This document shows positions 24,869 to 48,973 of a stretch of DNA of 48,973 nt, in pieces. The notes beneath the pieces are model-generated. The model had not been told where the DNA came from. It did not search any database and saw only the letters and a list, made by a program, of their open reading frames with translations. The DNA is from Nitrospira sp. CR1.2 (GTDB lineage Bacteria; Nitrospirota; Nitrospiria; Nitrospirales; Nitrospiraceae), in NCBI GenBank assembly GCA_014055495.1, contig WIAG01000026.1, positions 1 to 48,973 of the forward strand. Direction: 5' to 3'. Positions within the stretch are counted from its first letter, which is position 1, and each line of letters starts with the position of its first letter. Position numbers and translations under genes: made by a program.

Positions 24869-24944
24869 CCTGCATTATTGATGAGCGGTTCTGCTGCAAT
24901 CTTCGACTCATTGCCGCGACGGGCCTCCGGACGGCGGGCACACC

Positions 24945-26642: not shown

Positions 26643-26670
26643 TATCGATGAGATCGATCCTGTTGATTGA

Positions 26671-27923: not shown

Positions 27924-28044
27924 GGTATCGAGGTTGAGGTCGGTCGGCGGCAGAAGGCGTCGTCAGCCGGGCGACGAGGTCATGCTAGCACGTTCGGGGC
28001 GAGAACCGCAGCGGGAGTCTGCGTCGAAGATACGTGGCAGTAGG

Positions 28045-29061
28045 CTAGATCTGGCCGATGAGGTAGATGGCACCCGTCGGTTCCGGGCGTCCACCGTCCG
28101 GTTCCGCCGTCACCGCGAATTTCTTCATTCGCGGAAAGTCGCCCATGTTTTTGATCAACATGCGGGCCTTCTGCCCCGCGTCCAATCCGAATACGCCGGC
28201 GCTGACCGGTTTGTCGTCGATCGCCCAGAGCTGATAGACCTTTCCGCTCGGCAGCGCGGGCAGGTTGAACGCATAGAGCCAGGCTTTCTTGGTTGCCGGG
28301 TCGAACAGCAGAAACGCCCCTGCCGACTTCGCCATCTCAGAGCCGGAGAGGGAAACGACCTTGGACGCAGGATTCTTGAACAGGCCGGCAAACTCCTCAC
28401 TGTGGCGGGCGAGTCGCTGCAACGAACTTTCGTGTTGCGTCAGCCGGGCATGGGCATCGTCCAACTCCGCTTCCCGTTGCACTACCTGATCCCGCAATTC
28501 GGCTACCTCCGTCGTCCGCTGTTCCAATGCAGACTTCAGGGAGCCGAGGGTTTGCTCACGTTGCTGGAGCTCGGTTTGAAGGGCCGCCACACGTGCGGAC
28601 CCTTGTTGCACCGCCGTCTGGAGTTGTTGGATTTCACCCGAACGTTGCGCCGCCTGCGTAGAGGTGAGCCAGGCGATATAGCCGCCTCCGGCAATCAGCG
28701 CCACGGCGGCGACTCCCATGGCGAACCGGAAGGGCCACGAGCGGGCCGGTGTGATCGGAGGAAACAGATGGTTCATCCACTCGCCCGGTTCCAGGCTCGA
28801 TCGCGGGCCGGGCTGCTCTGTGTCGGCCTGGCTTGCGGTCGATGCCGGCGCCATCATGATCTTGGCCTTCAACGTATTGGGGGGCGTTGCGGGAGTCAGT
28901 CCGAACGGCAACAGCGAGGCGACGGTCTGATAGTCCTTCAAGGCGGCATGGCAGGCAGTGCATCCGGACAACAGATGCGCTTCGATTGCCTGCCGCTCCG
29001 AACGCTCCAGGGCGCCGATGGCGTAGAGGGGAACGGCCTCTTCCAATTCCTCGTGAGTCAT
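28045..29061 (-). CDS. Membrane anti-sigma factor, RskA type
   Basis: The 338-residue protein holds its partner ECF sigma factor inactive at the membrane. The cytoplasmic N-terminus has a zinc-finger-like anti-sigma motif (H29, C34, C37 in HLLSGCTAC). One membrane segment lies near residues 108-130 (RFAMGVAAVALIAGGGYIAW). The outer part starts with a heptad-rich coiled coil (about 135-215) and ends in an RskA-like domain (about 240-335) with VYQLWAIDDKPVSAG and AEPDGGRPEPTGAIYLIG, the usual end of this family. Its ATG overlaps the sigma gene stop by 4 bases (translational coupling). The signal sensed is unknown. Confidence 0.93.
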   Translation of the reverse strand: MTHEELEEAVPLYAIGALERSERQAIEAHLLSGCTACHAALKDYQTVASLLPFGLTPATPPNTLKAKIMMAPASTASQADTEQPGPRSSLEPGEWMNHLFPPITPARSWPFRFAMGVAAVALIAGGGYIAWLTSTQAAQRSGEIQQLQTAVQQGSARVAALQTELQQREQTLGSLKSALEQRTTEVAELRDQVVQREAELDDAHARLTQHESSLQRLARHSEEFAGLFKNPASKVVSLSGSEMAKSAGAFLLFDPATKKAWLYAFNLPALPSGKVYQLWAIDDKPVSAGVFGLDAGQKARMLIKNMGDFPRMKKFAVTAEPDGGRPEPTGAIYLIGQI

Positions 29062-29660
29062 ACCTGGTGACCTTGCGTCAAGGTCTCCTGCAAGGAGGCG
29101 CGGAGTTTGGTCATGGCCAGTTTGATTCTGGTCTTCACGGTTCCCAACGGCTGATTCAACTTGGCGGCGATCTCCGTGTGCGTCAATCCCTGGTAAAACG
29201 CCATCTCAATGGCCTGTTGCTGCGGGAGCGGCAGGTCGAGAATCGCCTTCGCCATGAGCTGTCGGATTTCAGTATCCTCACGGGCTTCGTACGGGTTCGG
29301 GCCGACATCGGGGGTGGCGGACACCAGCGGGTGCTCGAACGAGTCGGCTACCACATGTTGCCCGCGCGAGGCGCGTGCGCGTAGTCGATCGATCGCGCGA
29401 CTACGCGTCAGGGTCACCAACCAGGCGATGGGGCTGCCACGGCCCACATCGTATTTGGCGATTTTTCGCCAGACCTCGAGGTACACGTCCTGCAGCAACT
29501 CCGCCGCTTCGTCGCGATCGTTGAGAATGCGAGCGGCCAAAGTGAACAACAGCGTGCTGGACTGGTCGTAGAGTTGGCCGAATGCCTGTTGATCACCCCG
29601 GGCCACGCGGGCCAAGAGTTTGGGTTCGATCGATGATGCGGCGTGTCGCGGAGCGTCCAT
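29058..29660 (-). CDS. ECF RNA polymerase sigma factor (SigK-like)
   Basis: Directs RNA polymerase to stress-type promoters when released by its anti-sigma factor. The 200-residue protein has region 2 (about 18-90: FGQLYDQSSTLLFTLA, LLQDVYLEVWRK, SPIAWLVTLTRSRAIDRLR) and region 4 (about 135-190: LPLPQQQAIEMAFYQGLTHTEIA, LGTVKTRIKLAM) and lacks regions 1 and 3. The order sigma then RskA-like anti-sigma, with a 4-base overlap, matches the SigK/RskA pair of other bacteria. A sigma-70 promoter is visible upstream. No target promoter motif can be assigned from this window. Confidence 0.95.
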   Translation of the reverse strand: MDAPRHAASSIEPKLLARVARGDQQAFGQLYDQSSTLLFTLAARILNDRDEAAELLQDVYLEVWRKIAKYDVGRGSPIAWLVTLTRSRAIDRLRARASRGQHVVADSFEHPLVSATPDVGPNPYEAREDTEIRQLMAKAILDLPLPQQQAIEMAFYQGLTHTEIAAKLNQPLGTVKTRIKLAMTKLRASLQETLTQGHQV

Positions 29661-32878: not shown

Positions 32879-33204
32879 GCAGTCCTCACCGGTGTGAAAT
32901 GTTCATCGTCGGCTGTGGCTGCAGAATACTGGGTGGGCAGAAGGGAGGTCAATGGGGGCATCCGTAAGTGGAAACCCGTGAACGCCCTCTGTAACGTCGC
33001 ACTGCCCTCTTCGTACTCCTGCCCCCCGTTCCCACCGCAAGTCATGTAGATCTCGATGGTTTGCTCCTCCGCCCTCCCTGGCCCTTCTTACTCGTTCACT
33101 TAAGTTTCTGTTCTTTGTGACCGAAGGTACAGCCTGTAGGAGACTGCTGTCGGCAGGACTCGCGCGTCCGGTTGTGTCCGGTTGTCGGGAAAGCGCAAGC
33201 GATC
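32879..33204. other. Divergent intergenic region (326 bp)
   Basis: Lies between the minus-strand TPR set and the plus-strand TolC operon. It holds the promoter at 32,923-32,952 for the minus strand, a T/C-rich stretch (33,060-33,120) and, near the TolC start, two tandem copies of GTCCGGTTGT (33,166-33,185). I see no convincing plus-strand promoter and no RNA gene. Confidence 0.6.
32923..32952 (-). promoter_or_regulatory. Sigma-70 promoter of the TPR gene set
   Basis: TTGACC (32,947-32,952, five of six), an 18-base spacer and TATTCT (32,923-32,928) lie about 44 bases before the ATG at 32,878. One of the best promoter matches in the window. Confidence 0.5.
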
Positions 33205-34731
33205 ATGGTGTATCGAATCTGGGGCGTTGCGGCGGCCATGTGGCTGGTGAGCGGCTGTATGGTCACCCCAAGCCCTGTGACCAAAGAAGAGATCCAGGGT
33301 CGTGTCAGCCAGGATCTCCGCGCGATGTTGCAGGAGCAGGAGCCGATCGACAAGCCCATCGATTTCTATGAGGCGACGGCCAGGGCCCTCCGCTACAACC
33401 TCGATGCGAGGGTCAAGGCCATGCAAGCGGCTCTGGCGCACCAACAACTGAATGTGGCGCATTACACATTGCTTCCCCAGGTCGCGGTCAATGCGGGGTT
33501 CGATGGGCGCAACACCTTCAGCGGCGGCAGCGCGCAGTCCTTGCTCGACGGCCGTCCGGTCCTGGAACCCTTCACCTCGATGGATAAAAACGTGTTCAGC
33601 GGGAATCTGTCGCTCAGTTGGGACGTGCTGGATTTCGGATTGTCCTATATCCGCGCGAAGCAGGCCGGCGACAATATGTTGATCGCGGAGGAGGAGCGGC
33701 GCCGGATTGCCGTTCGCCTGTTGCAGGATGTACGGAATGCCTATTGGCGGGCCGTCAGCGCCGAACGGCTGTTGCCGCAAGTGCGGCAGCTCGACGGCAT
33801 GATCGACAAGGCGTTGAGCCAAAGCCAGGCGATTGTGGACCGCAAGCTCCAGGCGCCCCTCACGCCGCTGAATTATCGACGAGACATGTTGAACATTCAG
33901 CGGGAAGTGCAAAAGCTCATGCGTGAACTCAGTACGGCTAAAATTCAGCTCGCATCATTGATGGGTCTTCCTCCCGGGGTCCCCTTCGAGGTGCAGCCGC
34001 CGTCGCGTCATGGCGGCCCGTTGCTCGATACCTTGGATGCGGACAGTTTGGAGCAACAGGCGCTGACGTTCCGCCCGGAGTTGCGGACGATCGATTACCA
34101 AAAGCGGATCAACGCCAAAGAAGCCAAGGCGACGCTGTTGGAGTTGTTTCCCAGCATGAAATTGCAGTTCGGCGGCTATTACAACTCGAACACGTTCTTT
34201 CTGTATCAAAACTGGCTGAACTATGCGGCTCAGGTGAGTTGGAATCTCATGGGCGTCTTTCGCGTCCCGGCCAAGCTCAAGGCCGTCGAAGCGCAGCGGG
34301 CGGTGCTTGACGCTCAGAGTTTGGCGTTGACCATGACCGTGTTGACGGAAGTCCATGTGGGCGCGGCCCAGTTCATGTTGGCGAAAGACGAATTGGGCAA
34401 TGCCCGTACGTATCAGGAAACGCAGCAGGCGATCGTCGAACATACCCATAGTCTGTGGATCACGAACAGCACGAGCGACTTGGTCTTGTTACGGGAAAAG
34501 GTCAATCAGATTCTGGCGGAAGTCAGACTGGACGTGGCGCAGGCGGGAGTCGAGACGGCCTACGCCACCCTTCGGTCCGCGATCGGGGAGGAGGCGGTGC
34601 CGCCGTCCGTCCCGGACCAGACACTCTCCGGTCTGGCGGGCGCCTTGCGGCAGCTGTGGGAGCCGATGCCCGCCGGCGTTCCCGAATCGTCTCAAGAAAG
34701 GTCACATGATGCGACACCCATGGTTCCGTAG
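33205..34731 (+). CDS. TolC-like outer-membrane efflux lipoprotein
   Basis: Outer-membrane channel component of a tripartite exporter. With the ATG at 33,205 (a GTG at 33,172 would add residues before the signal peptide) the 508-residue protein begins with a lipoprotein signal ending in LVSGC, Cys18 being the lipidated residue. Two repeated halves of long alpha-helical hairpins and short beta strands follow (for example LSWDVLDFGLSYIRAKQA and VSWNLMGVFRVPAKLKAVEAQRA), the outer membrane efflux protein layout. It starts a run of four genes that overlap or nearly touch, and overlaps the next gene by 26 bases. Confidence 0.93.
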   Translation: MVYRIWGVAAAMWLVSGCMVTPSPVTKEEIQGRVSQDLRAMLQEQEPIDKPIDFYEATARALRYNLDARVKAMQAALAHQQLNVAHYTLLPQVAVNAGFDGRNTFSGGSAQSLLDGRPVLEPFTSMDKNVFSGNLSLSWDVLDFGLSYIRAKQAGDNMLIAEEERRRIAVRLLQDVRNAYWRAVSAERLLPQVRQLDGMIDKALSQSQAIVDRKLQAPLTPLNYRRDMLNIQREVQKLMRELSTAKIQLASLMGLPPGVPFEVQPPSRHGGPLLDTLDADSLEQQALTFRPELRTIDYQKRINAKEAKATLLELFPSMKLQFGGYYNSNTFFLYQNWLNYAAQVSWNLMGVFRVPAKLKAVEAQRAVLDAQSLALTMTVLTEVHVGAAQFMLAKDELGNARTYQETQQAIVEHTHSLWITNSTSDLVLLREKVNQILAEVRLDVAQAGVETAYATLRSAIGEEAVPPSVPDQTLSGLAGALRQLWEPMPAGVPESSQERSHDATPMVP

Positions 34732-35491
34732 CGGAATAGCGCTGCTCGTGCTGGGTTGGTGCGGGATGTCGGCCCCTGCCAGTGAGGCCAAGGGGGAACG
34801 TCCGCTGCAAGTGATGCGGACGGAAAAAGGGGTGATTCGGGGGATCGTGAAGGCGGCGGCCCAGGCCGTGTTGTACGCGCAGGTGCAAGGCCGCATCAAT
34901 CAGGTTCCCTTCAAAGAGGGGCAACGTTTCGAGAAGGGCAAAGTGCTGGTCCAGCTCGACTGCGAGCGGTACAAAGCGGAACTCGCGGCGGCGAAGGCGG
35001 AGCATGAAGCCAAGGGCAAAACCGCGCAGAACAATCGTTCGCTCATGACGCTCAATGCCGTCAGCACGCTGGATCTGGAGGTTTCCGAAGCGGAAGAGAA
35101 AAAAGCGGCCGCAGCGATCAAAGTGGCCGAGGTGAATGTGAAGGGGTGCCATATTACAGCCCCTTTTGCCGGACGCGTCGTAGCGGTCATGGTCAATGAA
35201 TATGAAAACGTGTTTCCGAACGACAAGTTGGTGAGCGTGTTGGACGATACGAGTTTGGAAATCGAACTGGTGGTGCCCTCGTCTGCATTGGCCTGGTTGC
35301 AGCGAAAAGCGCCGTTCACCTTTGTCGTGGACGAAACGCAACACGGATATCCGGCGACCGTCAAAGAGATCGGCGCCAACGTCGATCCGGCCAGTCAGAC
35401 CATCAAGATAGTCGGAGCCTTCGACCGGTTGCCGGTGGAAATTCTTGCCGGAATGAGCGGGTCTGCTCAGTTTGCCTCCGGCCAGCCATAG
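34706..35491 (+). CDS. Periplasmic adaptor (HlyD/RND-MFP family)
   Basis: The 261-residue protein has a signal peptide (LLVLGWCGMSAPASEA, likely cleaved after APA), a lipoyl half-motif at ALYAQVQGRINQVPFKEG-like positions 49-64, a short alpha hairpin rich in Ala, Lys and Glu (85-135), the second lipoyl half at ITAPFAGRVVAVMVNEYENV, and a beta-barrel end. Such adaptors bridge inner-membrane pumps and TolC. It is short for the family, with a reduced hairpin. Start: ATG at 34,706 or the next ATG at 34,709, which is better spaced from GAAAGG; the frame extends far upstream only as a shadow of the TolC gene. Confidence 0.92.
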   Translation: MMRHPWFRSGIALLVLGWCGMSAPASEAKGERPLQVMRTEKGVIRGIVKAAAQAVLYAQVQGRINQVPFKEGQRFEKGKVLVQLDCERYKAELAAAKAEHEAKGKTAQNNRSLMTLNAVSTLDLEVSEAEEKKAAAAIKVAEVNVKGCHITAPFAGRVVAVMVNEYENVFPNDKLVSVLDDTSLEIELVVPSSALAWLQRKAPFTFVVDETQHGYPATVKEIGANVDPASQTIKIVGAFDRLPVEILAGMSGSAQFASGQP

Positions 35492-35502: not shown

Positions 35503-36873
35503 GTGCAGGCCACTACTACCTCCGAACCGACGTCCCAGGAGATCGCGACTCTGATCCATCTGGCGACGTTGACGCACCTGGAAGGTCAGGTGCGCGCGGC
35601 GACGACGTTGTCAGAACTGCAGTTCGTCGCCGTCAATGAAACCCGCCGGTTGGTGCCCTACGATCACGCAGTGCTGCTGAGCGCCACCGATTCGGACGGG
35701 GCTTCCTATCGGGCCGTCACGGCATCCAGCGTGGCGGTGATCGATCAAGACGCTCCCATGCTGGTCTGGATGGAGCAGGTCGTGCAGGCGATGCGGACCG
35801 TGCAGCAGGAGGACGCGCCGATTGTCGTCGAACAGGGAAGCCTACCGGAAGGTCTGCGTGCCGCCTGGCGGGAATTCGTTCGTGGGCATGTGCTCTGGTG
35901 TCCGTTGAAGCATCCGGACGAGACGATTCTGGGAGGGTTGTGGATCGAGCGGGAGAGTCCCTGGCAGGACAACGATGTGACGATCGTGCAGCGCCTGGCC
36001 GGGAGTTACGCCTACGCTTGGAAGGCCCTGTCGAAACGTACCATCGGCTGGACGGCGCGGCTGAACCGGCCATCGATGGTCGCGCTGGTCGTGGTGCTCC
36101 TTGGCCTGCTGTGTCTTCCGGTCCGGATGTCGACGGTGGCGCCGGTGAAAGTGGTGGCGAAGGATCCGGTCGTCGTCAGTGCCCCCATGGATGGAGTGAT
36201 TGCCGATGTGGCAGTTTCACCGAATACCATGGTGCAGCATGATCGCCCGCTGCTGCGCTACGACGATACGAATATCCGAAACCAGTTCCGGCTGACTGAA
36301 CAACAACTCGCGGTGGCCAGGGCCGAGCATGCCCAGGCGATCCAGTCGGGGTTCGGCGATCCGGCGCGCAAGGCGGAGGTGCCGCTGAAGGCTGCGGAAG
36401 TCGCGCTCAAGGAGACAGAACTTGAGTATGCGCAGGAGAGGCTCGGGCAGATCGAGGTACGGGCGCCGCAAGCGGGATTGTTGTTGTATACGGACAAGTC
36501 CGATTGGGTGGGAAAACCGGTCACGGTGGGCGAGCGCATCATGGAAATCGCGGACCCTCTGCGCATCGAGCTCCGCATCGATCTGCCCGTCAGTGACGCA
36601 TTGTTGTTACAGGAAGGCGGAGACGTCATGGCCTTTTTCGATGCGTTACCGCTGGATTCGTTTCGGGCCGCGGTCAGTCGCACGAGTTATCATGCCGAGG
36701 TCCTCCCGGGGGATGTTCTCGCCTATCGAGTCACGGCAGACCTCGCTACCGTCGATCCTCGCATCCGCATCGGCTGGCAGGGATCGGCCAAGGTGTATGG
36801 TGAACGGGGGCCGCTGGCGTTTCTGCTGTTCCGCCGCCCGTTCACTGCGCTCCGTCAATTCCTGGGACTTTAG
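35503..36873 (+). CDS. GAF-like domain fused to membrane-anchored HlyD adaptor
   Basis: The 456-residue protein starts at a GTG (AGGGGAA upstream). Residues about 15-175 look like a GAF sensor domain (LEGQVRAATTLSELQFVAVNETRRL, then HVLWCPLKHPDETILGGLWIER). A membrane segment follows near 190-208 (MVALVVVLLGLLCLPV). The periplasmic part has a split lipoyl domain (VVSAPMDGVIADVAVSPNTM and IEVRAPQAGLLLYTD) around a helical hairpin, and a beta-barrel end, as in HlyD. The cytoplasmic GAF on an adaptor suggests that export is gated by a small ligand or partner. It stands 11 bases after the first adaptor and 3 bases before the M50 fusion. Confidence 0.9.
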   Translation: MQATTTSEPTSQEIATLIHLATLTHLEGQVRAATTLSELQFVAVNETRRLVPYDHAVLLSATDSDGASYRAVTASSVAVIDQDAPMLVWMEQVVQAMRTVQQEDAPIVVEQGSLPEGLRAAWREFVRGHVLWCPLKHPDETILGGLWIERESPWQDNDVTIVQRLAGSYAYAWKALSKRTIGWTARLNRPSMVALVVVLLGLLCLPVRMSTVAPVKVVAKDPVVVSAPMDGVIADVAVSPNTMVQHDRPLLRYDDTNIRNQFRLTEQQLAVARAEHAQAIQSGFGDPARKAEVPLKAAEVALKETELEYAQERLGQIEVRAPQAGLLLYTDKSDWVGKPVTVGERIMEIADPLRIELRIDLPVSDALLLQEGGDVMAFFDALPLDSFRAAVSRTSYHAEVLPGDVLAYRVTADLATVDPRIRIGWQGSAKVYGERGPLAFLLFRRPFTALRQFLGL

Positions 36874-36876: not shown

Positions 36877-39012
36877 ATGGCCGGTGTCACGCCACAGTCT
36901 CAGAAAGAGCGCCCGCTTCCCCGACTCCGCAAGAATCTCCAGTTTCTCCGCGGGGCCCCCTCGCCGGAGGGCGTTCCCATGTGGACAATCGTCGATCCGG
37001 TCCGCAATAAGTATTTTCAGATCGAATGGCAGGTCTACCAGCTCGTAGAGCGGTGGAGCGCCGGCACGATCGAGTCTCTGGTGAAGGTCGTCGGCCGCGA
37101 AACCACTTCCCGCCTCCGCGTGGAGGATGTCGAGGACTTCGTTCGCTTTCTCTATGCCAACAATTTGACCGATCAATCGGCAAGCGGGCAAACGAAGGAC
37201 TATGTGGAGCAGCAGGCCGCACGCCGTCAGGCTTGGTGGCAGTGGTTGCTGCACCATTATCTGTTCATCAAGATCCCGCTCGTACGTCCCGATGCCTTTC
37301 TGCGTACGACGCTTCCTCTTATCGCGCCGCTGTACACCGTCGCTGCGGCCTGGGTCTTCGGTGTTCTGACCTGTGCCGGGCTCTTCCTCGTCAGCCGCCA
37401 GTGGGACACGTTCGTGTCGACCTTCTTGCATTTCTTCAATTGGCGCGGCGCCGTCATGTATGGCGCCGTGCTCTGCGTGGTGAAAGGCATCCATGAGCTT
37501 GGGCATGCCTACACGGCGACGCGATTCGGCTGCCGGGTCCCGACGATCGGGGTGGCGTTCATGGTGATGATGCCCATGCTCTACTCCGACGTCAGCGACG
37601 CGTATCGGCTGACGGACAAGCGACAGCGGTTGGCCGTAGCCGCGGCAGGCGTGCTGGCAGAGCTGGGATTGGCTGCCGTGGCGACATTGCTTTGGGGGTT
37701 CCTGCCGGATGGCACCCTGCGCAGCCTGGCGTTCGTGGTGGCCACCACCAGTTGGATCATGAGCCTGTCGGTGAACCTCAATCCGCTGATGCGGTTTGAC
37801 GGGTACTACTTGCTTGCCGACGGGCTGGGGGTGCCGAATCTTCAGGACCGCGCATTCGCGTTCGGTCAATGGCGAGTGCGGGAATTGCTCTTCGCCCCGT
37901 GTGCTGCGCCGCCGGAGGCGGTCGGCGCGTCGAGGCGGAACCTCCTGGTAGCCTATGCCTGGGCGGTGTGGGGCTACCGATTGGTGCTGTTCACGGGCAT
38001 CGCGATCATGGTGTATCACTACTTCTTCAAACTCCTCGGGATCGCATTATTCCTCGTCGAAATGCTGTTCTTCATCTGTCTGCCTGTATGGCGCGAGTTG
38101 GAAGCCTGGTGGTCTCGGCGAATCCTGTATGCCTCGACCCGTCGGTTTGCCCTCACGATGGCGAGTCTGGCGGCTGCCGTCCTGCTGCTGTTCATTCCCT
38201 GGCAAGGGCGCGTCTCGATTCCTGCGGTGCTGCAATCGGCGACCTATGCCACGGTGTATCCACCGGCTCCGGGACGCATTGTGTCGGTGAGCGCGCAGCC
38301 CGGGCAATTTATTGAAGAAGGGCAGACGGTGCTGGTGATGGAAAGCCCTGAGCTGGCCAAGGCCGCCAAGGCGGCAGAGATTCAGGTCGACCTGCTGGAA
38401 TTGCGGACACAACGCCAAGCCGGCAACCTTGAAGATCGTGCGCAGGGGGCGGTGATCCGGGAGACACTGAGTGCGAAACAGGTGGAGCTGACCGGTGTGA
38501 TGGAGCGACAAGAGCAGTTACGGCTGCGGGCCCCGATCGCAGGGGTGGTGGCCGACCGCGCGGAGTCGCTCCACCCCGGCCGGTGGATCGGCACCGACGT
38601 GCCGGTCGCCTACCTCGTTGATCCGCAACGAGCGCATCTGGTCGCGTTGGTTTCGGTGGAGGATGTCCGGTTCTTGGTGCCAGGGCAGGACGCGCGGTTC
38701 ATCCCCGACGACCTGACGCGTCGCGTGAGACAGGCGCGGGTGCTCACCATCAGAGGTCTCGACGAGCAGGATCTCTCGGTGCCGTATTTCGCGTCGACCT
38801 ATGGGGGGGAAGTCCCGGTCCGGAAAGATGTGCGGGGGCGGCTCCAGGCCGAACAGTCTGTGTACCGCGTGGAGTTCGAGGTGCTGGATCTCGAGGAGCC
38901 CCTCCATCAAGCCGTCACCGGGCATGCGGTGGTCGTGGGAGAACACCGCAGTCTCGCCGGCCGGATGTGGGATCGGGTGACGGCTGTCCTGATTCGAGAA
39001 AGTGGATTTTGA
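36877..39012 (+). CDS. PqqD-like / M50 membrane metalloprotease / HlyD fusion
   Basis: The 711-residue protein begins with a winged-helix PqqD-like peptide-binding domain (about 15-105). A polytopic membrane region of the site-2 protease family follows: HELGH at 206-210 supplies the zinc ligands and catalytic Glu, and NPLMRFDG (302-309) the third ligand D308. After about eight membrane segments, residues 440-711 are a HlyD-type part: TVYPPAPGRIVSVSAQPG, a helical hairpin, LRAPIAGVVADRAESLHPG, and a beta-barrel. Such M50-HlyD fusions are known near peptide and adhesin export genes. It could cut or guide the substrate in the inner membrane; with no ABC ATPase nearby the energy source is unclear. 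Confidence 0.93.
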   Translation: MAGVTPQSQKERPLPRLRKNLQFLRGAPSPEGVPMWTIVDPVRNKYFQIEWQVYQLVERWSAGTIESLVKVVGRETTSRLRVEDVEDFVRFLYANNLTDQSASGQTKDYVEQQAARRQAWWQWLLHHYLFIKIPLVRPDAFLRTTLPLIAPLYTVAAAWVFGVLTCAGLFLVSRQWDTFVSTFLHFFNWRGAVMYGAVLCVVKGIHELGHAYTATRFGCRVPTIGVAFMVMMPMLYSDVSDAYRLTDKRQRLAVAAAGVLAELGLAAVATLLWGFLPDGTLRSLAFVVATTSWIMSLSVNLNPLMRFDGYYLLADGLGVPNLQDRAFAFGQWRVRELLFAPCAAPPEAVGASRRNLLVAYAWAVWGYRLVLFTGIAIMVYHYFFKLLGIALFLVEMLFFICLPVWRELEAWWSRRILYASTRRFALTMASLAAAVLLLFIPWQGRVSIPAVLQSATYATVYPPAPGRIVSVSAQPGQFIEEGQTVLVMESPELAKAAKAAEIQVDLLELRTQRQAGNLEDRAQGAVIRETLSAKQVELTGVMERQEQLRLRAPIAGVVADRAESLHPGRWIGTDVPVAYLVDPQRAHLVALVSVEDVRFLVPGQDARFIPDDLTRRVRQARVLTIRGLDEQDLSVPYFASTYGGEVPVRKDVRGRLQAEQSVYRVEFEVLDLEEPLHQAVTGHAVVVGEHRSLAGRMWDRVTAVLIRESGF

Positions 39013-39248: not shown

Positions 39249-42200
39249 ATGGGGTGGTTCGACTTCATGAAGAAGAAACGGCACGACGAGGGACGGGCAC
39301 GCAAGTCGTCGAAGGCTCCGCATCCGGCGGGCCGGGCGAAATCGTTGTTTCTGCCCCTCGAACAGCGCTTGATGTTCGATGCGGCGGCGGCCGCCACGAC
39401 GGCCGAGGTTGCTTCCGAACAGGTCGCGCAGGAGCAAGCCGAGGCTGCGCTTTCCGCGGACGCGGAGGAAAGCGGACCGGGCACGGGACCCACCGGGAGC
39501 GAGGATCTCGTCCAGGCGCTCACGACCTTTCTGCCGACAGACTCTCCCTCCGAAATGGCCTTCGTCGATCCGACCGTGCCGAACTATCAAGAGTTGCTCA
39601 GCGGCCTGGATCCGAACATTGAAGTGATCATGCTCGACGGGGGAAGCGACGGGATCGAGCAGATAGCAAATGCGCTGGCCGGGCGCACGGGGATCGACGC
39701 CCTCCATTTCATCGGTCACGGTGATCAAGGGTTGCTGAATCTTGGTACTGCGAGACTGACTGCCGAGTCGATGTCTGGGCAATACGCCGCCGAGTTGGCC
39801 ACGATTCAACAAGCATTGTCGGAGCAGGCGGACATTCTTGTCTACGGGTGTGATTTTGCGGCGGGAGACGAAGGGCTAGCCGCAGTGGCCGGGCTGGCCG
39901 AACTCACAGGTGCCGATGTGGCCGCCAGCAGCGACCAGACCGGTCACATCGATCTGGGCGGAGATTGGGAATTCGAAGTGCAAGCGGGTTCGATCGAAAC
40001 GGATTCGGCGTTGACCGATGCCGCGCAAATGAACTGGATGGGACTACTAGGGATCGAGACCGTGAGCGATACGTTCTCGTCTGAGTCCTACAGCAACAAC
40101 AATGGCACCCAATCGTGGTCTACAAGCTGGTCGGAAACAGATGCCAGCGGCGGGGGGGCCAGCGGCGGTGATGTGCGCGTCAATTCATCGCAGCTCCGGA
40201 TCGATACCGACACGGTCGGTAATGCAATCAGCCGGGGCGTCAACCTCAGTGGAGCGACAAGCGCCACGCTGACGTTCGACTATACAAATGCCTTACTCGG
40301 TGCTGACCGTATCGAGGTGCGCGTCTCGACCGACGGAGGGACAAACTATCAAGCTCTGACCGGCGGCACCTTCTCCAGTGCGGGCAACACGGGCAGCGGC
40401 ACGGCGAGTCTCGACCTCTCCAGCTACATGTCGGCCAACACAAGAATTCAATTTATCGTCACGGCTACCGGCGGTGGCGAACGGCTGTACGTCGACAATG
40501 TGCAGGTCAGCTACCAGACGAACAATGCGCCGGTGCTGTCGGATACGGCATTAACACTAACCGTGGTGGAGGATGCGGGGGCGCCGAGTGGGGCTGTGGG
40601 TTCCCTCATCAGTGCCTTCACGGGTGGGATCACCGACGTGGACGCGAGTGCGGTGAAAGGCATTGCGATTACGGGGACCGACCAAACGAACGGGACCTGG
40701 TACTACACGACGGATGGCGGCAGCGCCTGGACGGCGGTGGGCTCCGTCAGCAACACCTCGGCCTTGCTCCTCGCCGACAACGGGAGCACGCGGCTGTATT
40801 TTGCGCCGAGCGCCGACTACAACGGGACGAGCAGCGCGGCCTTGACTGTGCGGGCATGGGATCAGACGAGCGGGACGGCGGGGACCAAGGTCACGACGGC
40901 GAGCAACGGCGGCACCACTGCCTTCTCAAGTGCGACCGATACGATCGACGTGACCGTGAGCGCGGTGAACGATGCGCCGACGGATTTGAGTCTGTCGGGC
41001 AACTCGGTGGCGGAAAACGCGGCGAACGGCACGGTGGTCGGCACCGTGACCGGGACCGGTCCTGACACGGGTGATACGCAGACCTACAGCTTCACCGACA
41101 GTGCGGGCGGGCGGTTTGCCATCCAGAGCAGTACCGGCGTGATCACCGTTGCCGACGGCAGCCTGCTCGACTATGAGAGTGCCACAAGCCACAACGTGAC
41201 GGTGCGGGTGACGGACTCGGGCGGGCTCACCTACGACGAGACCTTTACGATCAACCTGACGAACGTCAACGAAGGTCCGACCGGCGCCGACGCCACGATC
41301 ACGCTCGCGGAAGACACGACGCATACCCTGACTACCGCCAATTTCGGCTTCAGCGATGTGGATGCCGGGGACAGTCTAAGTGCTGTGCGGATCGACACGG
41401 TGCCGAGTGCCGGCAGCCTGACCCTCTCCGGGGTCGCCGTCACGGCCGGGCAGGTGATTGCCGTCGCGGACATCACCGCCGGGAACCTGGTCTTCACCCC
41501 GGCGGCCGACGCCACCGGCACGGGCTACGCGAGCGTCACCTTTTCCGTCCGGGACAGCAACGGCACCTACGATGCAGTGCCCAATACGCTCACCGTGGAT
41601 GTGACGACTCAGAACGATGCGCCGACATTCAGGATAGGTGACGGGCAGGCCCTGACCAGTTTCGGGTCGGGATGGGAGTTTGGGAGAGAAACCGTCATCC
41701 AACCAGACGGCAAGATTTTGGTTGGGGGCTATAGCGATAGCGGCGGCAGCGATGATTTTAGCCTGGTCCGGTACAACGCCGACGGCACTCTCGATACCAG
41801 CTTCGGTGGTGGGGATGGGATGGCGTTTGCCGGGATCGTCGGTCGGGCGGAGACCATGGTCCTTCAAGCCGACGGCAAGGTGGTGCTGTCTGGGTATACG
41901 ACCACCGGCGGTTACCAAGTGTGCCTCGTGCGGTTCAATGCCGATGGCACGCTGGACACAAGTTTCGGCGGCGGGGACGGCATCGCGTCCTCCGGGGTGT
42001 ATGGCAGCGCGAAGGACGTGGCGCTTCAGACTGATGGCAAATTCCTGGTCGCGGCCGATCTGTCGAACAGCAACTTCAACCTGATGCGATTCAATAGCGA
42101 CGGGTCGCTCGATACCAGTTTCGGCGGCGGCTCAGGGTACGTCAGCACAGACCTTGCCGGGAGCACCGATCGTGCTGACAGCCTCACCATCCAATCTGAT

Positions 42201-45200
42201 GGCAAGGTGCTGCTGTCTGGGTTTGGATTCAACGGGACCAGTTTTGATTTTGCGTTGGTCCGGTACAACACGGACGGGTCATTGGACACGAGTTTCAACG
42301 GCACGGGGAAAGCGCTGACCGACTTCGTCGCCAACAGCAGCGATATGGGCAACGAGGTGCGGATGCAGGCCGATGGGAAAATCGTCGTGGCCGGATGGAG
42401 TAACGCCGGCGGCACCAACGATTTTGCGATTGCCCGCTACAACACCAATGGGACGCTGGACACCGGCTTCGGGACCGGCGGAAAAGTGACCATCAATCTG
42501 GGGGGCAGCGACCTCGCCGAAGGACTCACGATCCAGTCTGACGGCAAGATTCTCGTGACGGGTACGGCGGGGATCAACGGGGGTGATGTCGGCTTGGTCC
42601 GGCTCAATACGGACGGGTCCCTGGACACGACGTTCGGCGGTGGGGACGGGATTGTCACGACGGATTACAGTGGCGCCAGCGATGATCGGGGCTATAGCGT
42701 GGCGGTGCAAAACGATGGGCGGATTGTGGTGTCCGGTACCACTCAGGTCGGTGGCCTCGGTGGATACAACGTTGCCCTGAATCGCTACAGCAGTACCGGG
42801 TCGCTGGACACCACCCTCGATCCCGTCAATACGTTGAACGGGACGCCGACTTACACAGAGGGCGGGTCCCCCGTCGTGCTCGATGCCGACGTGCAGATCT
42901 TCGATGCGGAGCTCTCAGCCTTGAACAATTTCAACGGCGCTACGCTCACCCTCGCCAGAAACGGTGGGGCCAATGCTGAAGACCAACTCGTGTTCGACGG
43001 CGCGGTGGTGACGGTCAGTGGACCGGCTGTGTCAGTGAGTGGGGTGCAGGTCGGGACCTATACGTTTACGGGCGGAGAGATGACGATCGCCCTCAATGGG
43101 AACGCGACGCAGGCGCTGGTCAACAGTCTGATGCAGCACATCTTGTACTACAACGTGTCCGATACCCCTCCGGCCACCGCACAAATTGACTGGGCGTTTA
43201 GCGACGGCAACACTGGCGCTCAAGGCACCGGCGGGGCGATGCAAGCCACCGGTAGCACGACCGTGACGATCATCGCCGTTAACGATGCGCCGGTAGTCAC
43301 ACCCATTGCCCCTGATGTCACGTTTGTCGAAAGCGGGCTGGCACAGGTCATTGATGCGACGGGCACGATCACCGATGTGGACTCGTCGAACTTCGATGGT
43401 GGGGTGATGACTGTCTCGATTTCAGCCAATGGGACTGCCGATGACCGATTGATGGTGGGGAACTGGGGCACTGGCCCTGGCCAGGTGGGGGTTTCCGGCA
43501 GTGACGTCACCTATGGAGGGACCGTCATCGGGACCGTCAGTGGGGGGACCAGTGGGTCCGATCCCCTTGTGATCACATTCAATACCAGCGCGACGCCCAC
43601 TGCGGTGCAGGAAGTCTATCGCAGTATTCAATTCAACAATGTGAGCGACAACCCCTCCACGGCGACACGCACGCTTACGATCGGCCTCACCGATGGCGAT
43701 GGCGGGACGGCCACCTCCCAGACCAAGTTGGTCTATGTCCAAGGGACCAACGATGCGCCGGTGCTGACGGATACGGCCCTGGCCTTGACGGTGTCGGAAG
43801 ATGCGGGCGCGCCGAGCGGGACGGTGGGGAATCTGCTGAGCGCCTTCACAGGCGGCATTACGGATGCGGATAGCGGGGCCTCGAAGGGCATCGCGATCAC
43901 AGGGACCGACGAGACGAATGGGACCTGGTACTACACAACGGATGGCGGGAGCACCTGGACGGCCGTCGGTTCGGTGAGCAACACCTCGGCCCTCTTACTG
44001 GCCGACAACGGGAGCACGCGGCTCTACTTTGCGCCGAGCGCGGATTACAACGGGACCAGCACGGCCGCGTTGACCCTGCGAGCCTGGGATCAGACCAGCG
44101 GGACGGCAGGGACCAAGGTGACGACGGCGAGCAATGGCGGGACCACGGCCTTCTCCAGTGCGACGGACACCATCGATGTGACGGTGTCGGCTGTCAACGA
44201 CACTCCGACGGACCTGAGCCTGTCGGCCGGCACCGTGGCCGAGAACGCCGGCAATGGCACGGTGGTCGGGACCGTGAGCGGAACCGATCCTGACACGGGC
44301 GATACCAAGACCTACAGCTTGACGGATACGGCGGGCGGGCGGTTTGCCATCAACAGCAGCACGGGCCAGATCACGGTGGCGGATGGCAGCCTATTGAACT
44401 ACGAAATTGCGACCAGTCACAACGTGACGGTCCGGGTGACGGATAGTGGCGGCCTGACCTACGACGAGACCTTCACGATCACCGTGACGAACGAAAACGA
44501 AGCGCCGACCGGCGCCGACGCTACGATCACGCTCGCGGAAGACACGACGCATACCCTGACTACCGCCAATTTCGGCTTCAGCGATGTGGATGCCGGGGAC
44601 AGTCTGAGTGCCGTGCGGATCGACACGGTGCCGAGTGCCGGCACTCTGAACCTGTCAGGGGTCAATGTCACCGCCGGCCAGGTGATTGCCCTGGCCGACA
44701 TCACGTCGGGAAAGCTGATGTTCAGGCCTGCTACTGATGCCAACGGCACCGGCTACACCAGCTTCACCTTTTCTGTCCGGGACAGCACGAGTACCTATGA
44801 CTCAGCGCCCAATGTGCTTACCATCAATGTGACCGCGGTTAACGATGCGCCTGTCATGGCAACGAACGATGGTCTAACCGTCTCGGAGGCCGGATCAGTG
44901 GTCGTGTCTCCGAAATTCCTTTCCGTCACGGATGTCGACAATAGGGCCAGTGAGCTCACGTTCATGGTTACGACTCTTCCCGTCAACGGGACACTTCTGC
45001 TCAATCGTGTGCCACTCTCCCTCAAAGACACATTTACTCAAGCTGATATCGACCGCGAGATGCTTGAATATGTCCATGACGGTAGCGAGACTACGGTAGA
45101 CAGTTTTGCTTTCGTGGTGGAGGACGGGTCGGGGGGGGCAATTGCCGAGTCCACGTTCAAGATATCGATCACGCCAATCAACGACACCCCGACGGACCTG

Positions 45201-48200
45201 AGCCTGTCGGCGAACACCGTGACCGAGAACGCCAGCAATGGCACGGTGGTCGGGACCATCACCGGCACGGACCCCGATACAGGCGATACCAAGACCTACA
45301 GTTTCACCGACAGTGCGGGCGGGCGGTTTGCCATCCAGAGCAGTACCGGCGTGATCACCGTTGCCGACGGCAGCCTGCTCGACTATGAGAGTGCCACAAG
45401 CCACAACGTGACGGTGCGGGTGACGGACTCGGGCGGGCTCACCTACGACGAGACCTTTACGATCAACCTGACGAACGTCAACGAAGGTCCGACCTTTAGT
45501 AATCTCAACGGTGCTCCGACGTATGTCGAAGGGGGGGCTGCGGTTGTGTTGGACAGTGATGTTCAAATCACCGATCCCGAACTCTCATCGTCAAACAACT
45601 TCAGCGGTGCCACGCTGACGCTTCAACGCCAAGGTGGAACCAATAGTCAGGATATTTTCAGTGCCGCTGGGACATTGAGTCCTCTCATCGACGAAGGAGC
45701 CTTGGTCGTCAATGGCATAACCATCGGTGGTGTGTTGCAGAATGCAGGCGGTACCCTCATTCTCGTGTTCAACGGGAATGCGACGGGTGCGCTCGTCAAC
45801 GCGGCCATGCAGCAGATTGCCTATAGCAATAGCAGCGACGCGCCGCCGAATTCCGCGCAGGTGAACTGGACCTTCAGTGATGGCAACAGCGGCACACAAG
45901 GCACGGGCGGGGCACTGGGTGCCACTGGGAGTACCACCGTCACCATCACCGCTGTCAACGATACCCCGACGGACCTGAGCCTGTCGGCCGGCACCGTGGC
46001 CGAGAACGCCGGCAATGGCACGGTGGTCGGGACCGTGAGCGGAACCGATCCTGACACGGGCGATACCAAGACCTACAGCTTGACGGACACGGCGGGCGGG
46101 CGGTTTGCCATCAACAGCAGCATAGGCCAGATCACGGTGGCGGATGGCAGCCTATTGAACTACGAAATTGCGACCAGTCACAACGTGACGGTCCGGGTGA
46201 CGGATAGTGGCGGCCTGACCTACGACGAGACCTTCACGATCACCGTGACGAACGAAAACGAAGCGCCGACCGGCGCCGACGCTACGATCACGCTCGCGGA
46301 AGACACGACGCATACCCTGACTACCGCCAATTTCGGCTTCAGCGATGTGGATGCGGGGGACAGTCTGAGTGCCGTGCGGATCGACACGGTGCCGAGTGCC
46401 GGCAGCCTGACTCTCTCCGGGGTCGCCGTCACGGCCGGGCAGGTGATTACCGTCGCGGACATCACCGCCGGGAACCTGGTCTTCACCCCGGCGGCCGACG
46501 CCACCGGCACGGCCTACGCGAGTGTCACCTTTTCGGTGCGGGACAGCGCGAGCAGCTACGATGCGGCCCCCAACATGCTCACGTTCGATGTCACGCCGGT
46601 CAACGATGCGCCGGTGCTGACACGCGAAGCAAGTCTTGATTTCGAGAGCTATGTGCCTGGCAATCTTGGCACGCAGGACGGCTGGTCGATTGAGCTGTTC
46701 AATACATCGAATCAAGTACAGGTAACAGCTGGTGCCGGGCCGGATGGTGGGACGGCACTGCAATTCCCCTACTCGGGATCTGGAGTTGCCAATGCCCTCT
46801 CCAAGGTCGGGGAGACTGCACTGCCGGACTTAGTCAGTGCTGACTCGTTAACGCTGCAGTGGAGCATGCGGAATTCGTTCTGGGGGAATACCTTTGCTCT
46901 CGCGCACGATGCCAATGGTGACGGACAAATCCTAACCTCAAGCGGGGAAACTGCGATCGGAGTGTACAGCTCCCAGTCGACAAACTCACTCCAGATGCTC
47001 CTTCCGAATGGGACCAGTATTACAGTTGCCATGCCGGCTACGTTTGGGGCGGACGAATGGATCGAGTTTCGCTGGCAAATGGATTTGACCGCCAATGGCG
47101 GGCAAGGCGTTGGAACGCTGGAGTATCGCAATCTCAGCGACGGGGAGACGACTTGGAATAGCAATGCCAGCTTCACCAATGTCAATCTTGGGCTGAACCC
47201 ATTGGCGGTGGACAAAACGAACCCCGCCACGTGGGACGGCATCTACCTGTACCTCGAAGGAAGTCTGAGTGGATTTGACAACTACACCGCTACGGTCAAC
47301 GCGGATTCTGGTAGCGCGATGTTCACCGAGAATGGTGCTCCGGTCGTTCTGGACAGCAATGTCACGATTGCCGACATGGAACTCACGGCGGCCAATAATT
47401 TTAGTGGGGCGACGCTGATGCTCTCCCGCAACGGGGGCGCGAATGGGCAGGATGTGTTCAGCGCGACAGGCACCCTCTCCTCCATCTCGGCGGCGAGCGG
47501 GAATGTGGTGGTTGGTGGCACCACGATCGGAACGTACACCAACAGCGGCGGCACGTTGGTGATGACCTTCAACAGTAGTGCGACCAACACGCTGGTCAAT
47601 TCGGCGATGCAACAGCTTGCCTACAATAATTCGAGCGATGCGCCGCCGAGCTCGGTGCAGATTGACTGGAACTTCAACGACAGCAACGACGGCAGTCAGG
47701 GTACCGGCGGGGCCTTGACGGCAACCGCGAGCACGATGGTCTACATCACACCAGCCAACGACACCCCGACCGATCTGAGCCTGTCGGCGAACAGCGTGAC
47801 CGAGAACGCCAGCAATGGCACGGTGGTCGGGACCATCACCGGCACGGACCCCGATACAGGCGATACCAAGACCTACAGTTTCACCGACAGTGCGGGCGGG
47901 CGGTTTGCCATCCAGAGCAGTACCGGCGTGATCACCGTCGCCGACGGCAGCCTGCTCGACCATGAGAGTGCCACAAGCCACAACGTGACGGTGCGGGTGA
48001 CGGACTCGGGCGGGCTCACCTACGACGAGACCTTCACGATCACGGTGACGAACATGAATGAAGCGCCGACCGGCGCCGATGCCACGATCACGCTCGCGGA
48101 AGACACGACGCATACCCTGACTGCCGCCAATTTCGGCTTCAGCGATGTGGATGCGGGGGACAGTCTGAGTGCCGTGCGGATCGACACGGTGCCGAGTGCC

Positions 48201-48973
48201 GGCAGCCTGACCCTCTCCGGGGTCGCCGTCACGGCCGGGCAGGTGATTGCCGTCAGCGACCTCATGGCGGGCCAGCTCGTCTTCACCCCGGCGGCCGACG
48301 CCACCGGCACGGGCTACGCGAGTGTCACCTTTTCGGTGCGGGACAGCGCGAGCAGCTACGATGCGGCCCCCAACACGCTCACGTTCGATGTCACGCCCGT
48401 CAACGATGCGCCGGTGAACACGGTCCCGGGGGCCCAGACCGTCAACGAAGATACCGCCTTGGCCCTCAGTGGCCTCAGCGTCGCCGACGTGGACGGCAAC
48501 CTGAGTACCGTGCAACTGGGCGTGGGCAACGGGACCCTGTCGGTCACGCTTCAGGGGACCGCGACCATCAGTGCAGGCAGCAGCGGCACGGGCAGCCTGA
48601 CCCTTGCCGGCAGCCAAACCGACCTCAACGCGACCCTGGCGACGCTGATCTATCAAGGCAGCGCGCACTTCAACGGCAGTGACACCCTCACCGTCACCAG
48701 CACCGACAGCAACAGCCTCACCGACGTGGACACCGTCGCTATCACGGTCATGCCCCAGAACGATGCACCGACCCTCTCCGCCAACACAGGGAGCACGGCG
48801 GCAGAGGGGGGAACCGATACCATCACGGCCAGTGAGTTGGCCGTCACCGATGTGGACAACAGTGCCGCTCAGTTGACCTACTCCATCGGCACAGGGCCGA
48901 CGTATGGCCGATTGGAGCTGACAACGGCACCCGGTATTTCTGCAACGACGTTTACCCAGGCCGATATCGCAGC
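39249..48973 (+). CDS. Giant LEPR/DUF4347 surface protein with cadherin-like, tandem-95 and delta-60 repeats (partial, 3' end outside window)
   Basis: 3,241 codons are visible without a stop. Residues 1-50 hold a basic start and the motif FLPLEQRLMFDAAAA (34-48), a LEPR-type motif seen at the head of such proteins. A DUF4347 domain follows (about 105-250; HFIGHGDQG with H157, LVYGCDFA with C201), then a jelly-roll-like domain (about 270-420). From residue 425 on the protein is a long array: B, cadherin-like and tandem-95-like units, seven delta-60 repeats (41,628-42,830), more Ig-like units, and a concanavalin/LamG-like insert (46,614-47,290). DxDxG-like calcium positions such as TDSGG and SDVDAGD are frequent. 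It is probably exported by the four genes upstream and acts at the cell surface in adhesion; this is inference. Start ATG at 39,249; ATG at 39,267 is an alternative. Confidence 0.95.
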   Translation, partial: MGWFDFMKKKRHDEGRARKSSKAPHPAGRAKSLFLPLEQRLMFDAAAAATTAEVASEQVAQEQAEAALSADAEESGPGTGPTGSEDLVQALTTFLPTDSPSEMAFVDPTVPNYQELLSGLDPNIEVIMLDGGSDGIEQIANALAGRTGIDALHFIGHGDQGLLNLGTARLTAESMSGQYAAELATIQQALSEQADILVYGCDFAAGDEGLAAVAGLAELTGADVAASSDQTGHIDLGGDWEFEVQAGSIETDSALTDAAQMNWMGLLGIETVSDTFSSESYSNNNGTQSWSTSWSETDASGGGASGGDVRVNSSQLRIDTDTVGNAISRGVNLSGATSATLTFDYTNALLGADRIEVRVSTDGGTNYQALTGGTFSSAGNTGSGTASLDLSSYMSANTRIQFIVTATGGGERLYVDNVQVSYQTNNAPVLSDTALTLTVVEDAGAPSGAVGSLISAFTGGITDVDASAVKGIAITGTDQTNGTWYYTTDGGSAWTAVGSVSNTSALLLADNGSTRLYFAPSADYNGTSSAALTVRAWDQTSGTAGTKVTTASNGGTTAFSSATDTIDVTVSAVNDAPTDLSLSGNSVAENAANGTVVGTVTGTGPDTGDTQTYSFTDSAGGRFAIQSSTGVITVADGSLLDYESATSHNVTVRVTDSGGLTYDETFTINLTNVNEGPTGADATITLAEDTTHTLTTANFGFSDVDAGDSLSAVRIDTVPSAGSLTLSGVAVTAGQVIAVADITAGNLVFTPAADATGTGYASVTFSVRDSNGTYDAVPNTLTVDVTTQNDAPTFRIGDGQALTSFGSGWEFGRETVIQPDGKILVGGYSDSGGSDDFSLVRYNADGTLDTSFGGGDGMAFAGIVGRAETMVLQADGKVVLSGYTTTGGYQVCLVRFNADGTLDTSFGGGDGIASSGVYGSAKDVALQTDGKFLVAADLSNSNFNLMRFNSDGSLDTSFGGGSGYVSTDLAGSTDRADSLTIQSDGKVLLSGFGFNGTSFDFALVRYNTDGSLDTSFNGTGKALTDFVANSSDMGNEVRMQADGKIVVAGWSNAGGTNDFAIARYNTNGTLDTGFGTGGKVTINLGGSDLAEGLTIQSDGKILVTGTAGINGGDVGLVRLNTDGSLDTTFGGGDGIVTTDYSGASDDRGYSVAVQNDGRIVVSGTTQVGGLGGYNVALNRYSSTGSLDTTLDPVNTLNGTPTYTEGGSPVVLDADVQIFDAELSALNNFNGATLTLARNGGANAEDQLVFDGAVVTVSGPAVSVSGVQVGTYTFTGGEMTIALNGNATQALVNSLMQHILYYNVSDTPPATAQIDWAFSDGNTGAQGTGGAMQATGSTTVTIIAVNDAPVVTPIAPDVTFVESGLAQVIDATGTITDVDSSNFDGGVMTVSISANGTADDRLMVGNWGTGPGQVGVSGSDVTYGGTVIGTVSGGTSGSDPLVITFNTSATPTAVQEVYRSIQFNNVSDNPSTATRTLTIGLTDGDGGTATSQTKLVYVQGTNDAPVLTDTALALTVSEDAGAPSGTVGNLLSAFTGGITDADSGASKGIAITGTDETNGTWYYTTDGGSTWTAVGSVSNTSALLLADNGSTRLYFAPSADYNGTSTAALTLRAWDQTSGTAGTKVTTASNGGTTAFSSATDTIDVTVSAVNDTPTDLSLSAGTVAENAGNGTVVGTVSGTDPDTGDTKTYSLTDTAGGRFAINSSTGQITVADGSLLNYEIATSHNVTVRVTDSGGLTYDETFTITVTNENEAPTGADATITLAEDTTHTLTTANFGFSDVDAGDSLSAVRIDTVPSAGTLNLSGVNVTAGQVIALADITSGKLMFRPATDANGTGYTSFTFSVRDSTSTYDSAPNVLTINVTAVNDAPVMATNDGLTVSEAGSVVVSPKFLSVTDVDNRASELTFMVTTLPVNGTLLLNRVPLSLKDTFTQADIDREMLEYVHDGSETTVDSFAFVVEDGSGGAIAESTFKISITPINDTPTDLSLSANTVTENASNGTVVGTITGTDPDTGDTKTYSFTDSAGGRFAIQSSTGVITVADGSLLDYESATSHNVTVRVTDSGGLTYDETFTINLTNVNEGPTFSNLNGAPTYVEGGAAVVLDSDVQITDPELSSSNNFSGATLTLQRQGGTNSQDIFSAAGTLSPLIDEGALVVNGITIGGVLQNAGGTLILVFNGNATGALVNAAMQQIAYSNSSDAPPNSAQVNWTFSDGNSGTQGTGGALGATGSTTVTITAVNDTPTDLSLSAGTVAENAGNGTVVGTVSGTDPDTGDTKTYSLTDTAGGRFAINSSIGQITVADGSLLNYEIATSHNVTVRVTDSGGLTYDETFTITVTNENEAPTGADATITLAEDTTHTLTTANFGFSDVDAGDSLSAVRIDTVPSAGSLTLSGVAVTAGQVITVADITAGNLVFTPAADATGTAYASVTFSVRDSASSYDAAPNMLTFDVTPVNDAPVLTREASLDFESYVPGNLGTQDGWSIELFNTSNQVQVTAGAGPDGGTALQFPYSGSGVANALSKVGETALPDLVSADSLTLQWSMRNSFWGNTFALAHDANGDGQILTSSGETAIGVYSSQSTNSLQMLLPNGTSITVAMPATFGADEWIEFRWQMDLTANGGQGVGTLEYRNLSDGETTWNSNASFTNVNLGLNPLAVDKTNPATWDGIYLYLEGSLSGFDNYTATVNADSGSAMFTENGAPVVLDSNVTIADMELTAANNFSGATLMLSRNGGANGQDVFSATGTLSSISAASGNVVVGGTTIGTYTNSGGTLVMTFNSSATNTLVNSAMQQLAYNNSSDAPPSSVQIDWNFNDSNDGSQGTGGALTATASTMVYITPANDTPTDLSLSANSVTENASNGTVVGTITGTDPDTGDTKTYSFTDSAGGRFAIQSSTGVITVADGSLLDHESATSHNVTVRVTDSGGLTYDETFTITVTNMNEAPTGADATITLAEDTTHTLTAANFGFSDVDAGDSLSAVRIDTVPSAGSLTLSGVAVTAGQVIAVSDLMAGQLVFTPAADATGTGYASVTFSVRDSASSYDAAPNTLTFDVTPVNDAPVNTVPGAQTVNEDTALALSGLSVADVDGNLSTVQLGVGNGTLSVTLQGTATISAGSSGTGSLTLAGSQTDLNATLATLIYQGSAHFNGSDTLTVTSTDSNSLTDVDTVAITVMPQNDAPTLSANTGSTAAEGGTDTITASELAVTDVDNSAAQLTYSIGTGPTYGRLELTTAPGISATTFTQADIA
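40521..41624 (+). repeat. B-CAD-T95 supermodule, copy 1 (1,104 bp)
   Basis: Three in-frame units in series: B1 (40,521-40,982, 462 bp, starting at an N-A-P linker), cadherin-like CAD1 (40,983-41,279, 297 bp) and tandem-95-like T1 (41,280-41,624, 345 bp). The same three units with identical lengths recur at 43,749-44,852. The units end in NDAP or NEGP/NEAP linkers typical of bacterial cadherin-like arrays. Confidence 0.9.
41628..42830 (+). repeat. Delta-60 repeat block (seven units)
   Basis: Seven units of about 50-60 codons, each with an IQPDGKILVGG-like strand and a closing LVRYNADGTLDTSFGGGDG-like hairpin; the last is degenerate (YSSTGSLDTTLDP). This is the delta-60 repeat, which forms a beta-propeller-like fold in large bacterial surface proteins. 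The GGGDG ends resemble RTX nonapeptides but lack their nine-residue period. Confidence 0.88.
42834..43280 (+). repeat. F-type repeat, copy 1
   Basis: First of three copies of a unit that begins TYTEGGSPVVLDADVQIFD and holds NNFNGATLTLARNGGAN, a G-containing middle strand, and ends in a DWAFSDGNTGAQGTGG-like strand. The other copies are at 45,492-45,971 and 47,292-47,756; they are more diverged from each other than the CAD and T95 units. Confidence 0.8.
43749..44852 (+). repeat. B-CAD-T95 supermodule, copy 2 (1,104 bp)
   Basis: B2 (43,749-44,210), CAD2 (44,211-44,507) and T2 (44,508-44,852) have exactly the lengths of copy 1. CAD2 is closest to CAD4, not to CAD1, and T2 diverges from the other T units in its second half, so the supermodule has been patched after duplication. 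Confidence 0.9.
45195..45491 (+). repeat. Cadherin-like unit CAD3 (unpaired mosaic copy)
   Basis: 297 bp, in the same frame as the other CAD units but followed by an F unit instead of a T95 unit. Its last 190 bases look identical to those of CAD1 (41,091-41,282), while its first third matches CAD5, a mosaic pattern. Confidence 0.9.
45492..45971 (+). repeat. F-type repeat, copy 2
   Basis: Second F unit (TYVEGGAAVVLDSDVQITD, NNFSGATLTLQRQGGTN), between CAD3 and CAD4. It carries a short insertion compared with copy 1. Confidence 0.8.
45972..46613 (+). repeat. CAD4-T3 pair (642 bp)
   Basis: CAD4 (45,972-46,268) and T3 (46,269-46,613). CAD4 and the first part of T3 differ from CAD2 and T2 at only about three of 430 bases by eye, which marks a very recent exchange. 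Confidence 0.9.
47292..47756 (+). repeat. F-type repeat, copy 3
   Basis: Third F unit (MFTENGAPVVLDSNVTIAD, NNFSGATLMLSRNGGAN, ending QIDWNFNDSNDGSQGTGG), right after the LamG-like insert. Confidence 0.8.
47772..48413 (+). repeat. CAD5-T4 pair (642 bp)
   Basis: CAD5 (47,772-48,068) and T4 (48,069-48,413), again 297 plus 345 bp. CAD5 differs from CAD3 at only a few bases in its first two thirds. After it come a different Ig-like unit (48,414-48,770) and the start of a CSPG-like unit that runs off the window and has a relative at 44,853-45,182. Confidence 0.9.

Follow-up and report, generated by a model that had tools for sequence, protein, structure and literature searches.

A fusion of a predicted leader-binding domain, an M50 protease and an HlyD-type adaptor as a candidate cargo-recognition component for giant surface proteins in Nitrospira

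What might a single polypeptide do that joins a putative peptide-binding domain, a zinc protease and a periplasmic adaptor? The question was raised by a gene in the window, a contig of 48,973 nucleotides (WIAG01000026.1) and one contig of the 4.06 Mb genome of Nitrospira sp. CR1.2. The original prediction was that the protein could recognise the leader of the neighbouring giant protein, cut it in the membrane and hand the chain to TolC. With a rough probability of 0.55, we read the fusion as the cargo-recognition and processing component of a type I-like secretion system for giant surface proteins.

The fusion ORF (711 aa, ATG start) begins 3 nt past the end of the GAF-HlyD gene and is the fourth gene of a set encoding a TolC-family channel, an HlyD protein, a GAF-HlyD protein, the M50-HlyD fusion and a giant cadherin/DUF4347 protein (Table 1). 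The channel and the two further adaptors are encoded upstream of the fusion, all on the same strand. The HlyD gene overlaps the end of the channel gene and likely starts at the ATG of MMRHPWFRSG; the true start of the channel gene may lie downstream of the listed TTG. The gene for the giant runs past the contig end, giving a protein of at least 3241 aa. No ABC exporter is encoded in the window operon. Just upstream, at 15434-27438, lies a lipopeptide-like cluster made up of an NRPS gene, whose 3144-aa product begins with a fatty-acyl-AMP ligase, and then of genes for an ABC exporter of the cyclic peptide type (24945-26642) and for a phosphopantetheinyl transferase (26671-27438). A 422-aa ORF near this cluster (27802-29070) had no Pfam match. 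This ABC exporter was weighed as a candidate for the missing pump and not retained, as it matches cyclic peptide exporters (TIGR01194) and adjoins the NRPS gene.

Table 1. Features of the fusion operon and of the adjoining giant gene, in window coordinates
Feature	Coordinates	Strand	Basis
TolC-family outer membrane channel (OEP)	33172..34731	+	PF02321, 88.9 bits; equal place in related operons
HlyD/RND_mfp-type periplasmic adaptor	34706..35491	+	TIGR01730, 120.3 bits vs cut-off 94.9
GAF domain fused to HlyD-type adaptor	35503..36873	+	PF01590, PF13437, PF16576
Triple fusion: RRE/PqqD-like domain, M50 membrane protease and HlyD-type adaptor	36877..39012	+	Profiles, alignment, models
Predicted RRE/PqqD-like leader-binding fold, fusion residues ~13-102	36913..37182	+	Predicted structure
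HELGH zinc site, fusion residues 206-210 (H206, E207, H210)	37492..37506	+	61-homologue alignment
NPLMRFDG, fusion residues 302-309 (D308, third zinc ligand)	37780..37803	+	61-homologue alignment
HlyD/MacA-like periplasmic adaptor domain, fusion residues ~441-711	38197..39009	+	Profile and model
Giant protein, candidate substrate	39249..48971	+	Leader, DUF4347, cadherin-like and delta-60 repeats
Leader motif LEQRLMFDAA, giant residues 37-46, behind a basic stretch	39357..39386	+	
DUF4347 domain of the giant	39558..40049	+	Domain search

The composition of the fusion was analysed with profiles, alignments and models. Two of the three predicted parts were recovered with Pfam, namely Peptidase_M50 (PF02163, 31.2 bits against a cut-off of 27.2) and HlyD_3 (PF13437, 50.5 bits against 22.2), and the N-terminal domain was recovered by its predicted fold. 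Nitrospirota, Pseudomonadota and Desulfobacterota all have full-length homologues, so the gene is not a sequencing artefact and the triple fusion is confirmed as real. The zinc site was also found as predicted: HELGH and NPLMRFDG are both present, and H206, E207 (which we take to be the catalytic Glu), H210 and the distal D308 were invariant in all 61 aligned homologues. By these residues the M50 site is intact and the protein is a predicted protease. The full-length model had a mean pLDDT of 85.4, and its C-terminal part resembled the MacA, EmrA, MexA and AcrA adaptors, in agreement with the predicted periplasmic adaptor. In a Foldseek search with the whole model, adaptors filled the entire match list, making it uninformative on the M50 part.

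For the N-terminal domain, a sequence-only search for solved relatives returned nothing credible, and structure comparison was therefore used. A separate model of residues 1-134 had a mean pLDDT of 68.3, with values of 73-83 across residues 11-100; in the full-length model the domain reached 82-88 over most of its length. The top two PDB matches of the N-terminal model in Foldseek were TbiB1, a lasso-peptide B1 protein with bound leader. After realignment of the fold matches, lasso B1 proteins led with Z scores of 9.7, 9.5 and 9.2 over 81-83 residues, followed by ThcOx, CteB, TruD-type heterocyclases, GdmN and MccB. Most of these top matches contain known leader-binding (RRE) domains. The Pfam PqqD profile (PF05402) gave no match in the window fusion itself; it matched weakly in 4 of 29 fusion homologues (best E 0.01) and just below the cut-off in a related protein of locus L047 (E 3.8e-4, 21.2 bits against 23.4). 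The modelled domain is thus named a winged-helix RRE fold; under the original designation as PqqD-like, the leader-binding fold was recovered and a PqqD profile match above the cut-off was not. The associated idea of leader recognition by the fusion is partly supported.

An RRE-type domain combined with an M50 protease is also found in MpaP, which is described as an RRE-dependent intramembrane peptidase that removes the leaders of daptides (PMC10036551). The MpaP profile (NF041824) spans fusion residues 38-402 with an E-value of 4.6e-50; the score of 170.8 lies below the equivalog cut-off of 300. Unlike MpaP, the fusion carries a C-terminal HlyD adaptor, and its candidate substrate has thousands of residues rather than being a short peptide. 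For another M50 protein, EpeP, a double role in cleaving its peptide and exporting it has been proposed (PMC10885120).

The N-termini of the giants were then compared. In the giants beside the fusion, a basic stretch at the start precedes LE[PQS]R[LI][ML]FD[AG]A, usually with AT later. The 49 distinct N-termini compared were gathered by the motif pattern, and the invariance of its fixed positions is therefore partly by construction; in many other loci the 10 kb flank ended within the giant, leaving its N-terminus outside the data. When every reading frame of 60 aa or more in 80 loci was scanned (1,422,513 residues), a similar pattern matched 35 times, in each case close to the beginning of a long ORF beside the operon, and a chance origin of the motif was rejected. 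In locus L082, the large neighbouring ORF has an ordinary signal sequence instead of the leader. Means of hydropathy over 19 residues were 0.5-1.5 in the leader, below those of a signal peptide or a membrane span, and by this measure the leader is too polar for an ordinary transmembrane or Sec signal. The leader resembles LEPR-XLL (NF012209), which likewise has a short LExR motif at the N-terminus of large, repetitive proteins. The window motif scored 15.9 against the cut-off of 17 for that family, and the window-type form is LE[PQS]RxMFD[AG]A. A search for the fusion beside other LEPR-type proteins, as proposed with the original prediction, found the same fusion adjoining LEPR-type giants across phyla.

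The 80 loci with a similar gene set came from a scan of bacterial genomes and belong to Nitrospirota, alpha-, gamma- and zetaproteobacteria and Desulfobacterota. Fusion homologues of at least 48% identity were present in 47 of the 118 genomes of the family. DUF4347 and a close fusion occurred together in 44 of these genomes, the fusion only in 3, DUF4347 only in none and neither in 71 (Fisher 3e-29, a value that overstates independence because related genomes share ancestry). Gene order was the same in all 13 fetched loci with the SecA-less form, and a DUF4347 giant was adjacent in 12; in the exception, L045, it lies outside the fetched stretch, and that genome does have DUF4347 proteins.

Plasmids served as a control. 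The leader was present in all six records with a full-length fusion (L137 among them) and missing in nine of ten DUF4347 records without the fusion (Fisher 9e-4). L137 holds the cassette of Cupriavidus metallidurans CH34, with the giant at 5058-16310 and the fusion at 19992-22091. The exception was Qingshengfaniella (L146), with a leader-bearing giant and no fusion on that plasmid, for which the plasmid record alone was covered. Plasmid DUF4347 proteins without the fusion came from Phaeobacter, cyanobacteria and others, and those of Phaeobacter and cyanobacteria (L139 14989-16776; L141-L144; L151) start almost directly at DUF4347. As these proteins have neither the leader nor a linked fusion, DUF4347 was rejected as the cargo-defining mark; it is the leader that tracks the protease. 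In L139 and L141, the gene next to the DUF4347 gene encodes a calcium-binding or M10-type C-terminal protein.

The window-type giants are, on this sequence evidence, strong substrate candidates. Since the fusion is nearly always found with giants that start with the same short tag, it probably reads this tag during export and perhaps also cuts it. A regulatory role would fit the M50 family, whose members are known as regulators, and the operon does contain a GAF domain. The protease would then act on some unrelated membrane protein, in the way RseP cleaves RseA, with the GAF-HlyD protein sensing the signal and the adaptor merely acting as an anchor. No regulator substrate is linked to the locus, and cargo recognition is a better fit to an RRE-type domain together with a shared leader on the neighbouring giant, making a regulatory role very improbable.

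For cargo recognition and processing, the following steps are proposed. The RRE domain would bind the LE[PQS]RxMFD leader of the giant on the cytoplasmic side and deliver it to the M50 site, which would probably remove it. The three adaptor-bearing proteins would form a mixed ring docking to the TolC-family channel, and the chain would therefore exit without a free periplasmic stage. The products of the operon may also act in sequence without contact. HlyD-type adaptors, a TolC-family channel and a giant repetitive surface protein are features of type I secretion as well (HlyB-HlyD-TolC; LapA-type giant adhesins). The window operon differs in lacking an HlyB-type ABC exporter and in the N-terminal position of the conserved signal.

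Against this scheme, the leader is hydrophilic compared with the usual substrates of intramembrane proteases, a difficulty for its access to an intramembrane active site. Site-2 proteases normally cut transmembrane helices. The C-termini of the giants differ between clades. A hydrophobic segment such as ALTGTTLSVGFVLWAVRKGRLLAG followed by a basic tail, a possible membrane anchor, ends several Nitrospira giants (L035, L036, L039, L040, L044, L057, L062). These features would suit a route in which the giant leaves by way of SecA/SecYEG on an atypical signal and the M50 site comes into play afterwards, for instance to cleave a C-terminal membrane anchor, by which the giant would be released or tethered. 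Most proteobacterial giants with the same protease are without such a segment, and it is the N-terminal leader that both groups share; we consider late cleavage unlikely. At their C-termini the proteobacterial giants (L083, L087, L106, L117, L122, L123, L131, L135, L137) share a loose pattern in which S-F or S-L precedes Q-L or Q-I and a helix-like stretch comes last, perhaps a second sorting or docking signal. Two loci, L040 (10478-20000) and L060 (13340-20522), contain a tandem pair of leader-bearing giants downstream of one operon, which suggests one exporter serving several cargoes.

For the passage of the giants across the inner membrane, the cassette brings along no ABC exporter and no second SecA. 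The comparison here is with loci described by Kamneva et al. in 2015, which contain M50-HlyD, GAF-HlyD and a secondary SecA_DEAD protein; they proposed SecA_DEAD as the ATPase and M50 as the pore, named no substrate and called the biological role "completely unknown" (PMC4452313). The two forms have in common M50-HlyD, GAF-HlyD, HlyD and OEP genes in one locus and the absence of an ABC transporter, and the GAF-HlyD protein of the window is of the same class as theirs. Unlike the SecA_DEAD module, the window form is a five-gene cassette linked to DUF4347 giants. No SecA_DEAD gene or other SecA homologue was found in the 80 loci with the window-type cassette. The window's own genome has a single SecA, and four proteobacterial genomes each have one strong SecA, their second matches being weak. 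A tblastn search with one ABC ATPase across the 80 loci, covering linked genes only, gave sporadic distant matches.

This lack of a linked motor is also what would be expected if the M50-HlyD protein mainly provided inner-membrane passage in place of an ABC exporter, its protease residues being kept for a secondary role; an M50 pore has already been put forward for the SecA_DEAD module. We regard such a passage role as rather unlikely, given that the perfect conservation of the four catalytic residues points to a real protease. In addition, an M50 fold is not known to act as a protein-conducting pore. Under the favoured reading of recognition and processing, with no dedicated ATPase encoded, the chain might pass through the housekeeping SecA/SecYEG, through a pore made of M50 proteins or through an unlinked transporter. 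A bolder version would be a distinct export route without an ATPase of its own, in which an RRE-guided intramembrane protease picks giants by a RiPP-like leader, cuts this leader and threads the chain directly through its own adaptor into a TolC-type channel; we hold this version to be doubtful.

The SecA_DEAD form itself is present in related Nitrospira genomes (L046-L052), and the M50-HlyD proteins of that type in other Nitrospira genomes are paralogues of 25-29% identity. In L047, SecA_DEAD (335.9 bits) lies beside an M50-HlyD protein and an LEPR-XLL protein, the latter (8552-17664) carrying ELWxxDGT repeats. Based on this adjacency, LEPR-XLL proteins are candidate cargo of the SecA_DEAD module too. 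In the genome family, LEPR-XLL and the SecA-type form occurred together in 13 genomes, LEPR-XLL only in 4 and the SecA-type form only in 10 (Fisher 2.7e-8).

For a secretion module with a role still "completely unknown" in 2015, the analysis thus puts forward both substrates and an address tag as candidates. We consider the cargo tag its most useful new element. Leader recognition as known from small peptide natural products would thereby be tied to the export of proteins thousands of residues long, and the question arises what powers this export. Both the substrate and the tag proposals are testable in tractable bacteria. In a literature search that was thin on subscription journals, no paper was found that describes the triple fusion, its SecA-less setting or the leader. 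In many environmental genomes and some Enterobacterales plasmids, the cassette goes under the name 'HlyD family efflux transporter periplasmic adaptor subunit', which is uninformative.

A compact five-gene version of the cassette was found on an E. coli plasmid from wastewater. Its fusion gene was present in 24 of 5426 complete E. coli genomes and was mostly plasmid-borne. Degraded copies of the fusion were also observed: one in L070 (10001-12084) is broken, with the split near 10340, and genome G055 carries a second, fragmentary copy with an internal stop (C32:49458-50210).
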